From: Myxococcus stipitatus
GTDB taxonomy: Bacteria; Myxococcota; Myxococcia; Myxococcales; Myxococcaceae
Direction: 5' to 3'
DNA: 64,000 nucleotides
NCBI RefSeq assembly: GCF_038561935.1
Contig: NZ_CP102770.1
Coordinates: 8,122,001-8,186,000, forward strand
Shown: piece after piece, positions 27,366 through 30,955 of the stretch
Position numbering within the stretch: the first letter of the stretch is position 1
How the letters are laid out: each line of letters starts with the position of its first letter
Made by a program: the position numbers and the translations under genes
The notes under the pieces: generated by a model
Told to the model about the DNA's origin: nothing
Database searches by the model: none
Seen by the model: the letters and a program-made list of their open reading frames with translations, nothing else

Positions 27366-28478
27366 TCAGGCCTTCGGCGTCGCCACCAGGTCGAAGTCCG
27401 GGATGTGTTCGCGCATGAACTCGCGCATGCGCTGGATGAGCGCGGCCTCGATTTGACGCGCGCGCTCGCGGCTGACGCCGTACTTGTCGCCGATGTCCTG
27501 GAGCGTCAGGGGCTCGTCCGCGGTGAGGCGGTGCTCGAAGATGTAGCGCTCCTTGCCCTCCAGCGACTGGGAGAACTCCGCCAGCTTCTCCCGGAAGAGG
27601 GCCTTGAGCTGCTCGGCGCCCAGTCGCTCGTCGGCGGGGACCGCGCCCGACGGCAGGTAGCGGTCCGCGCGCGTGGCCCGGGAGCCCTCGTCGTCCCCGC
27701 CCAGCGGCGCGTCGATGGAGACCTCGTCGTGGCCCAGCCGCTGGTCCATCTCCACCACGTCCTGCTCGGTGACGTTGAGCCGCTCCGCGAGCAGCTTGGG
27801 GCTGGGCTCGAAGCCCTGGGCGATGAGCTTCTCCTGCTCCTGGCGCAGCTTGAAGAAGAGCTTCCGCTGGGCCTCCGTCGTCCCCAGCTTCACCATCTTC
27901 CAGTTGTCCATGATGTAGCGAAGGATGTACGCCCGAATCCACCAGGCCGCGTAGCTGCTGAGCTTCACGCCGCGCTCGGGGTCGTACTTCTTCACCGCCT
28001 GCATCAACCCGATGTTGCCCTCCTGCACCAGGTCCAGCAGGGACAGCGGGTTGCGGTGGTACTCGTGCGCCAGCTTCACCACCAGCCGCAGGTTGGACGC
28101 CACCAGCCGGTACGCCGTGCGCACATCCCCCGTGTCGCGGTACTGACGCGACAGCGCCAGCTCCTCGTCGCGCGTCAGCAAGGGGTGACGCTGCACCTCC
28201 GCCATGTAGGCCTGGAGGGGGTCCCTGTTGCTCAGCCCGGACTCACCCGCCCGCGCCAGGGCCTTGGAGGGCGCGGACCGGGGCGCGTCCTCCTCGGGCT
28301 CCACCTCGACCAGCTCCGCCTCGTCGGGCTCCAGGGAGTCCGGGTCCACCTGCGCCTCGACAGCCGAGTCCTCCGACTGGGCGTCAACCTCTTCCGCACG
28401 GGGAGGCGCGCTCCCCGCCGCCCGCTTCGACTTGGGCCGGGAAGACGTTCCTTTGGTTCTTTTCCCTCCACTCGCCAT
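27366..28478 (-). CDS. RpoH-like RNA polymerase sigma factor
   Basis: A 370-residue sigma-70 family protein. An 80-residue acidic/basic N-terminal extension precedes region 1.2 (about 86-120), region 2 (122-195, with NLRLVVKLA, LDLVQEGNIGLMQAV and the -10 contact helix SSYAAWWIRAYI), region 3 and region 4 (about 322-355, LTLQDIGDKYGVSRERARQIE). After region 2 it has QRKLFFKLRQEQ, close to the RpoH box of heat-shock sigma factors. RpoH is usually about 285-300 residues, so the extension is unusual. Myxobacteria carry several such paralogues (for example SigB/SigC), so the exact regulon is open. ATG 28478 has GGAGAG at good spacing. Divergent from the DEAD-box helicase. Confidence 0.88.
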   Translation of the reverse strand: MASGGKRTKGTSSRPKSKRAAGSAPPRAEEVDAQSEDSAVEAQVDPDSLEPDEAELVEVEPEEDAPRSAPSKALARAGESGLSNRDPLQAYMAEVQRHPLLTRDEELALSRQYRDTGDVRTAYRLVASNLRLVVKLAHEYHRNPLSLLDLVQEGNIGLMQAVKKYDPERGVKLSSYAAWWIRAYILRYIMDNWKMVKLGTTEAQRKLFFKLRQEQEKLIAQGFEPSPKLLAERLNVTEQDVVEMDQRLGHDEVSIDAPLGGDDEGSRATRADRYLPSGAVPADERLGAEQLKALFREKLAEFSQSLEGKERYIFEHRLTADEPLTLQDIGDKYGVSRERARQIEAALIQRMREFMREHIPDFDLVATPKA

Positions 28479-28546
28479 CGGCTCTCCATACCCCAAAGTG
28501 CCGCGATTGTTGCCAGAGGGTAATGCAGGAGCTATGCCCCTGCTTG

Positions 28547-30955
28547 ATGAGCGACATCCAAGAGCCCACCGCGCCGGGCAGCCCGGCCACCGACGAAGCG
28601 CCGACGCGTCCCGCCGAATACATCGCGGACATCGGCTTCGACGACATGAATCTGTCCGAGCCCCTGCGCCGTGCGTTGGCGGAGCGCGGCTACACCCACC
28701 CGACTCCTGTCCAGGCGCGCGCGTTCCGGCCGGCCATGGAGGGCAAGGACCTCATTGTTCGCAGCAAGACGGGCACCGGCAAGACGGCCGCGTTCGGCCT
28801 GCCCCTGTTGGAGAAGATTTCCCCGGATGACAAGCGCGTGCGCGCGCTCATCCTCTGCCCCACGCGGGAGCTGGCGCTCCAGGTGGCGGACGAGCTGACG
28901 AAGCTCGCGAAGTACAAGGGCGTGAAGGTGGCGGCCATCTACGGCGGCGCCTCCATGAAGCAGCAGGAGGACGCGCTCGAGGAAGGCACGCCCATCATCG
29001 TCGGCACGCCGGGCCGGGTGTTCGACCACATCCACCGGGGCAACCTGAAGCTGGATGGGTGCGACCACGCGGTGCTGGACGAAGCCGACGAGATGCTCAA
29101 CCAGGGCTTCTACGAGGAAGTCACCCGCATCCTCGACCGCCTTCCCAAGACGCGCCAGGTGCTGCTCTTCAGCGCCACCGTCCCCACGGACATCCAGAAC
29201 CTCATCGCGCGCTACACGACGAACGCGGAGACGCTCCTGCTCTCCGGCGACGTGTTCACCGTGGAGCACATCCACCACGTCCGCTACGACGTGTCGGACG
29301 CCTTCCCCAAGCCGCGCAACCTCATCTACGTGCTGGAGAAGGAAGAGCCCCAGAACGCCATCATCTTCTGCAACACGCGGGATGACACGGCGCTGGTGAC
29401 GGCGGTGCTCAACCGCAACGGCTTCGACGCGGAGCTGCTCAACGGAGACCTGCCGCAGAAGGAGCGCGAGCGGGTGATGGCCAAGGTGAAGCGCGGCGAG
29501 GTCGCCTTCATGGTGGCCACGGATATCGCGGCGCGCGGCATCGACATCTCCGGGCTGGAGTACGTCATCAACTACTCCCTGCCGGAGGACCCGGCCGTCT
29601 ACCTGCACCGCGTGGGCCGCACGGGCCGCATCGGCAACAAGGGCACGGCCATCAACCTCTTCTCCGGGCGCGAGCTGGCCACGTACACCGCGCTGGAGAA
29701 GAAGTACGGCATCAAGTTCGACAAGCAGGAGATGCCGGCGCCCGAAGAGGCCATGCGCCTGTGGACCGAGCGCCACGTGCGCGAAATCCAGGAGGCCGCT
29801 GGCAGCTCCGTGTTCGAGGGCTTCTTGCCCCTGGCCGCGCAGCTCAAGACGCGTCCCAACGCGGATGACCTGGTCGCCTTCCTGCTGAAGTACTTCTTCA
29901 GCCACCTGCGCATGGAGAAGGCCAAGGCCGCGCAGGAGGCCGAGGGCCGCGAGCCGACGCCGGAGCGCAAGCCCGAGGGCCGCCGCCGCGAGCGCGAGCG
30001 CGGGGACGAGCGCCGGGAGCGCGGCGAGCGCCGGGAGCGTGGCGAGAAGCCGCTGGCGCGCCCGGAGCATCCGGACCGCGAGCGCCGGCCGCGCCGGGAC
30101 GAGCCCCGCCGGGAGCGGGACTCCAGCCGTGGCGCCGCCGCGCTGGAGGCGGGCCCGGGCGAGGCGAAGCTGTGGGTGAACCTGGGGACCGCGGATGGCC
30201 TGGGGCCGGGCAGCATCGCCACGGCGCTGGAGGATGCGGGCGCGCCGCTGGGGAAGGTGGTGCGCGCGGAGCTGCGTCCCACGTTCGCGTACGTGTTCGT
30301 CGCGGACGAGGACGCCGCCGCGTTCGAGACGCTCAACGGCAAGCAGCACGGCTCCAAGACGCTTCGCGTGGAGAAGAGCAAGCCGCGCAGCGAGCGCGAG
30401 CCGGGCACGCGCCCGCCTCCGTCTCCGGACGCCGGCCCGGGCGAGGTGAAGCTGTGGACGAACCTGGGCTCCGATGACGGCATGGACGAGGCGAAGCTGC
30501 CCGCCGCGCTGGAAGCCGCGGGGGCTCCCGCGGGCAAGGTGCTCAAGGCGCTCCTGCGTCCCACGTACGGCTACGCCTACGTCGCCGAGGCCGACGCGCC
30601 GGAGTTCGAGGCGCTCAACGGCAAGACGGTGGGCGACAAGGTGCTGAAGCTGGAGCGGCACCGTCCTCGCGGCCAGCGCGAGGAGCGTCGTCCGCGTCAC
30701 GAGTCCCTGCCGGACGTGCCGGGCCAGGTGCGCCTGTGGGTCGGCCTGGGCAAGCAGGACGGGCTGGACGAGGCGGGTGTCGCCAGCGCGCTCGAGGCCG
30801 CGGGTGCTCCGGCCGGCAAGGTGGTGCGGATGGATTTGCGCCCCACGTACGCGTACGTGTTCGTCGCGGACGAGGACGCCACGGCCTTCGAGGCCACGCA
30901 CGGAAAGCAGCACGGTGAGCGCACGCTGAAGGTCGAGCGCGCGCGCAAGAAGTAG
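28547..30955 (+). CDS. DEAD-box RNA helicase with three DbpA-like RNA-binding modules
   Basis: An 802-residue RNA helicase. The RecA core has a Q motif, Walker A SKTGTGKT (73-80), PTREL, DEAD (178-181), SAT (209-211) and HRVGRTGR. A dimerisation-like segment follows to about 450, then a very Arg/Glu-rich linker (455-535). The C-terminus holds three tandem DbpA/CsdA-type RRM-like domains at about 536-615, 628-705 and 722-798. Each has LWxxLGxxDG, AxxxALExAGAPxGKV, LRPTxxYxxVAxxDAxxFE and LNGKxxGxKxLxxE blocks. Known bacterial members carry one such domain. It probably remodels ribosomal or structured RNA. An in-frame ATG at 28523 with AGAGGG close upstream is an alternative start. Confidence 0.92.
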   Translation: MSDIQEPTAPGSPATDEAPTRPAEYIADIGFDDMNLSEPLRRALAERGYTHPTPVQARAFRPAMEGKDLIVRSKTGTGKTAAFGLPLLEKISPDDKRVRALILCPTRELALQVADELTKLAKYKGVKVAAIYGGASMKQQEDALEEGTPIIVGTPGRVFDHIHRGNLKLDGCDHAVLDEADEMLNQGFYEEVTRILDRLPKTRQVLLFSATVPTDIQNLIARYTTNAETLLLSGDVFTVEHIHHVRYDVSDAFPKPRNLIYVLEKEEPQNAIIFCNTRDDTALVTAVLNRNGFDAELLNGDLPQKERERVMAKVKRGEVAFMVATDIAARGIDISGLEYVINYSLPEDPAVYLHRVGRTGRIGNKGTAINLFSGRELATYTALEKKYGIKFDKQEMPAPEEAMRLWTERHVREIQEAAGSSVFEGFLPLAAQLKTRPNADDLVAFLLKYFFSHLRMEKAKAAQEAEGREPTPERKPEGRRRERERGDERRERGERRERGEKPLARPEHPDRERRPRRDEPRRERDSSRGAAALEAGPGEAKLWVNLGTADGLGPGSIATALEDAGAPLGKVVRAELRPTFAYVFVADEDAAAFETLNGKQHGSKTLRVEKSKPRSEREPGTRPPPSPDAGPGEVKLWTNLGSDDGMDEAKLPAALEAAGAPAGKVLKALLRPTYGYAYVAEADAPEFEALNGKTVGDKVLKLERHRPRGQREERRPRHESLPDVPGQVRLWVGLGKQDGLDEAGVASALEAAGAPAGKVVRMDLRPTYAYVFVADEDATAFEATHGKQHGERTLKVERARKK

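Follow-up and report, generated by a model that had tools for sequence, protein, structure and literature searches.

A myxobacterial DEAD-box RNA helicase with three tandem DbpA-like RRM modules

A DEAD-box RNA helicase encoded by Myxococcus stipitatus ends in three consecutive RRM-type modules, and trees of the helicase core and of the modules indicate that an originally lone RRM at the C terminus gave rise to three in the common ancestor of a Myxococcaceae clade. The gene lies in a window (the whole stretch of DNA analyzed) of 64,000 nucleotides from a 10.2 Mb genome whose kin is Myxococcus. The protein is predicted to act as a dimeric RNA chaperone of the CsdA/CshA kind whose RNA tether has been tripled, a proposal that we regard as evenly balanced between right and wrong. 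What is new is modest but real, in that the usual single RNA-grip domain has been tripled and retained on a well-known helicase.

The helicase gene occupies positions 28547..30955 of the forward strand, on which all of its domains are read, and encodes 802 amino acids; an in-frame ATG upstream, at 28523, is an alternative start that would extend the protein to 810 amino acids. Identification of the product as a DEAD-box helicase in the preliminary description is borne out by a DEAD domain (28703..29200; PF00270, 166.6 bits) and a helicase C-terminal domain (29309..29635; PF00271, 122 bits), both above the Pfam cut-offs. These are followed by a helical region resembling the end of CshA (29741..29932, from a model alignment to 5ivl_B), which is presumed to be a dimerization domain, and by a linker (29933..30151) recognized by its Arg/Glu-rich composition (26 K+R and 21 D+E over aa 460–535). 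Three RRM-type modules lie C-terminal to this charged linker, as had been described, at a spacing of 94 amino acids: module 1 (30152..30385, aa 536–613), module 2 (30434..30667, aa 630–707), and module 3 (30716..30952, with aa 724–801 at 30716–30949). The NCBIfam model for CshA spans aa 31–455 and is the top match, followed by DbpA; none of the named helicases among the best 25 NCBIfam models listed reaches its equivalog cut-off (CshA, 414.8 against 646; DbpA, 394.4 against 524; PRK11634, 323.1 against 989; CsdA, 308 against 890).

The three modules share 43 (pair 1–2), 49 (pair 1–3), and 45 (pair 2–3) identical residues over 78 aligned positions, which is far above chance, and the translation retains the LWxxLGxxDG, AGAPxGKV, and LRPTxxYxxV blocks in every copy, in agreement with the original reading. 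The accompanying claim that copies 1 and 3 are the closest holds for the M. stipitatus protein (49/78 against 43 and 45) and fails as a general rule, as the identity of pair 1–2 is at least that of pair 1–3 in 7 of the 10 proteins compared. Copies 1 and 3 (33.5 and 30.8 bits) exceed the 25.6-bit cut-off of PF03880, the Pfam DbpA family, while copy 2 (16.4 bits) falls below it; consequently, copy 2 is recognized through its relatives, being a clear homologue by profile A1, and not through Pfam. By comparison, E. coli DbpA and CsdA have one module each, confirming the single-module state assumed for these proteins at the outset, and two further DEAD-box helicases of the same genome each contain a single DbpA module of the canonical type (L001, 90.1 bits; L002, 86.6 bits).

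Sequence searches of the PDB with the modules and with profile A1 return weak RRM matches only; kinship with DbpA is visible through Pfam and through the fold. Modelled together from 22 sequences (mean pLDDT 85.0; pTM 0.46, too low to place the domains relative to one another), the three modules are each predicted to have the RRM topology. The top VIA-align match is E. coli DbpA (7bbb, Z 10.3, 87 residues, rmsd 2.9; also 7pli, Z 10.2, and 7pmq, Z 10.1), and rRNA-bound YxiN (3moj) is matched with a Z of 8.6 over 73 residues (rmsd 2.3); many other RRMs come next in the ranking, no more than 2 Z units behind.

For aa 30–463, the predicted structure (mean pLDDT 84.9) can be superposed on CshA (5ivl_B) across 411 residues (model residues 1–426, Z 36.6, rmsd 5.5), and a CshA-type helical domain is present after the core. 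Hera, CshA, and CsdA dimerize via a small helical domain of this kind (PMC7721647, PMC3695512). By analogy, the three-module helicase is probably a dimer, which would carry six RRMs.

The surface through which these modules might contact RNA was compared between the 60 modules of the 20 three-copy proteins in the module tree (L079 excluded) and 17 canonical modules (14 myxobacterial modules, E. coli DbpA, E. coli CsdA, and YxiN). According to PMC3695512, YxiN and Hera bind RNA not on the face used by classical RRMs but on the other side of the sheet, and the sole specific contact that they share is a guanine held by the main-chain amides of I436, G437, and I439 of YxiN. The column of G437 is glycine in 17/17 canonical modules and in 0/60 modules of the three-copy proteins, a strong hint rather than proof that the pocket is lost, since a main-chain contact has no strict need for glycine. 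The column of K427, a base contact in YxiN, is Glu in 59 of the 60 modules and has a gap nearby, and it provides no test because Lys occurs in YxiN alone among the canonical rows. Acidic or neutral residues stand in place of the basic loop that follows strand 1, and the net charges of the three M. stipitatus modules are −1, −2, and 0, whereas the two canonical modules encoded in this genome have +3 and +6.

The opposite face of the sheet has a different character. With RNP positions numbered as in classical RRMs, the aromatic side chains of a classical RRM are found at RNP2-2 (Trp in 55 of 60; Lys, Arg, or Gln in 5 of the 20 copy-2 modules), RNP1-3 (Phe or Tyr in 60), and RNP1-5 (Tyr in 60), and a Lys or Arg precedes RNP2 in all 60. 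RNP1-7 is Phe or Tyr in 58/60 modules and aromatic in 0/17 canonical modules; RNP1-3 alone does not separate the two kinds of module, as it is His, Tyr, or Phe in 14 of the 17 canonical modules. Strand alternation in the model, as opposed to coordinates, suggests that these aromatics are exposed on the face of the β-sheet. Much of the same surface pattern occurs in the single-copy orthologues, indicating that the surface change predates the triplication.

Based on these features, it is proposed that the modules grip RNA through the aromatic face of the β-sheet, in place of the guanine pocket that YxiN and Hera have on the back face. In a dimer made by the CshA-type domain, six RRMs on charged, flexible linkers would tether the enzyme by avidity to long RNA or to clustered single-stranded segments, while the two cores would unwind duplexes near the tethered RNA. 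The near-neutral charge of the modules speaks against any one of them binding RNA strongly. Binding by the β-face would direct the enzyme to targets other than hairpin 92, probably mRNA or other regions of rRNA; binding of long structured RNA, as suggested in the preliminary description, is possible.

Some RRMs bind proteins, and an alternative is that the modules contact protein partners, such as an RNase or the ribosome, with the array functioning as a scaffold. The near-neutral charge and the conserved residues in each copy would suit this role, and protein-contacting RRMs (Y14) are among the fold matches, which says little alone; the basic residue before RNP2 in 60/60 modules together with RNP-like aromatics is the usual pattern of RNA binding, and the scaffold is considered unlikely. 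Somewhat less probable still is an extension of the tether proposal in which the back-face mode has been abandoned altogether and three classical β-face RRMs, doubled by dimerization, would carry out sequence-guided, multi-site RNA targeting, every module being adapted to a different RNA segment. To our knowledge, targeting of this kind has so far been found in eukaryotic RRM proteins.

The preliminary description also proposed that the three DbpA-type modules steer the helicase to hairpin 92 of 23S rRNA or to several like hairpins. DbpA is indeed the closest solved fold, YxiN is among the matches, and PF03880 scores for copies 1 and 3 lie above the cut-off. Evidence against this proposal includes the guanine-pocket glycine (G437 of YxiN; PMC3695512), present throughout the canonical modules and absent from all 60, the now acidic or neutral loop, the net charge of about zero, and the sub-threshold score of copy 2, while the canonical modules of L001 and L002 could do this job in the same genome. 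Hairpin 92 is therefore not supported as a target and is very improbable, well below the scaffold. The related idea that two copies are decoys beside one good copy also fails, as all three copies and the single-copy orthologues lack the glycine of the YxiN site and purifying selection is retained.

The three-copy design is not private to the M. stipitatus genome. Profile A1, built from 18 modules, was used to count modules across 96 Myxococcaceae genomes, giving three matches in 63 genomes, four in 1, two in 3, one in 27, and none in 2. Of the four matches in that one genome, three belong to the array and the fourth is weak and lies in a different helicase, and the three-copy array is found in 64/96 genomes and 11 genera. 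Among the genomes with two matches, the pair in G104 sits at a contig start and is cut by the contig end, whereas those in G059 and G115 are not at a contig edge. Some drafts have the array divided between two contigs, such as that of M. xanthus AM003 (one module on L030 and two on L029). Draft contigs from several myxobacteria (L028–L031, L022, L024, L027) break off after module 1 and before module 2; two pairs of contig ends were compared and share no overlap, making a GC-rich coverage gap as plausible a cause as a repeat.

Two-copy Corallococcus proteins amount to two records, each fetched twice (L025/L122 and L026/L123). In L025 the upstream side resembles the context of module 1 and the remainder resembles module 2, while in L026 the upstream side fits neither module context well beyond the last bases; a real deletion and an assembly collapse are indistinguishable from these sequences. 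If the assemblies are right, three modules are not strictly needed.

In other families of the order, 14 of 25 genomes have one match and 11 have none, and in all 14 the single module closes the reading frame at the same C-terminal place. The refuting condition of the preliminary description, that many bacterial helicases have two or three copies, was checked within Myxococcota: outside the order, 1 of 26 PF03880-matching genomes (G163) has two modules in one frame. That locus (L118, from another family of the class) is a 746-aa frame whose two tandem modules are 75% identical to each other and at most 42% identical to any other module, apparently reflecting a separate and younger duplication. 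A tblastn search of 72,556 plasmids gave no match, and the open-access papers searched contain no report of two or more DbpA-type domains in a bacterial DEAD-box protein.

The one-copy relatives outside the family are syntenic orthologues. A sigma-32 (RpoH-like) gene (27366..28496, reverse strand; NCBIfam PRK06596, 276.5 bits, cut-off 241) is divergent from the helicase gene, head to head with about 50 bases between them, and a relative of it adjoins the helicase in 14 of the 17 loci fetched from outside Myxococcaceae; shared regulation of the two genes is possible. The helicase-core tree contains 66 rows, of which 28 have three modules, 2 have two, and 36 have one. Twenty-nine multi-module rows (27 three-copy and 2 two-copy) form one clade with support of 100/96, and the sole three-module row outside it is L079 (genome G068). 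Three copies may have arisen a second time in L079, but the data also tolerate a tree that unites all multi-copy rows (p-AU 0.275, computed on 48 of the 66 rows). The tree left out repeats (L122, L123, L125), coreless or right-end-cut loci, and loci with no PTP anchor (L099, L118, L119), and kept L121 although it is identical to L013; the core alignment, A3, is without L005, L007, L072, and L076 (anchor ambiguous) and L011, L017, and L131 (anchor missing). L018, titled Comamonas sp. KCTC 72670, falls inside Myxococcus in the helicase tree with myxobacterial neighbours kept, and its label looks wrong.

Although the module tree of 100 modules rests on 78 columns and has many weak forks, the copies group by position. 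Module 1 (20 rows) forms one group (93/71), module 2 forms another that also takes in the first module of each two-copy row (97/85), and these two groups are sisters (99/94), while module 3 lies among the single modules of relatives. This tree left out 24 loci, which were near-copies or distant outgroups, and L022–L031 except L025 and L026. The placement of module 3 suggests that it best matches the ancestral domain and that modules 1 and 2 are additions; together, the supported clade and the position-wise grouping point to one old triplication followed by divergence.

An SDRELFE-like short motif occurs in the linkers of 20 of 27 one-copy rows of the family and in no three-copy row; it is seen in L073, L075, L077, L078, L080–L082, L098, and others, sometimes twice and then followed by PPIDDPT, and looks like a linear motif for binding a partner. 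An exchange of this motif for modules was considered and rejected, as the one-copy proteins nearest to the three-copy clade (L074, L076, L110) also lack it.

Selection on the copies was probed by Nei-Gojobori dN/dS against eight orthologues, using our own script. Values of 0.06–0.31 for module 1, 0.21–0.54 for module 2, and 0.11–0.31 for module 3, beside 0.07–0.14 for the core, indicate that all three copies are under purifying selection and that module 2 evolves fastest yet is constrained; each copy also has conserved residues of its own. Neutral origin of the additional copies by slippage, with drift alone retaining them, is thus very improbable, for although tandem copies also arose in L118 and two Corallococcus records have two modules, three copies are held across 64/96 family genomes in 11 genera, with residues conserved per copy and dN/dS below 1.

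These findings bear on the way in which accessory domains give DEAD-box helicases a choice of targets. Culturable myxobacteria offer a natural series in which an orthologous, syntenic core carries from one to three modules, and the influence of the number of RRMs on which RNA is chosen and on unwinding is therefore directly testable. In addition, a DbpA-type module can apparently lose the rRNA pocket and still be kept.

Among known systems, the eukaryotic multi-RRM proteins Prp24 and raver1 likewise have three RRMs in a row; RRM1–3 of Prp24 is the top Foldseek match of the modelled modules, and RRM1–3 of raver1 is among the VIA-align matches. In contrast to these proteins, the myxobacterial array is bacterial and fused to a helicase, and no kinship is claimed, the multi-domain matches having an rmsd above 10. 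The RNA-binding domain of DbpA and YxiN shares the fold (7bbb, 3moj) and, for copies 1 and 3, the Pfam family; the myxobacterial modules differ in loss of the pocket glycine, basic loop, and positive charge, and in the aromatic face of the β-sheet. The helicase core and following helices align with those of CshA over the 411 residues described above, although the NCBIfam cut-offs for CshA, DbpA, and CsdA are not reached. Hera and CsdA likewise possess, in addition to the domain that dimerizes, an accessory domain at the C terminus (PMC3695512, PMC7721647), and CshA is described as being without a DbpA-type domain (PMC8190605). Where CsdA and Hera have one RNA-binding domain and CshA no DbpA-type domain, the myxobacterial helicase has three divergent ones.
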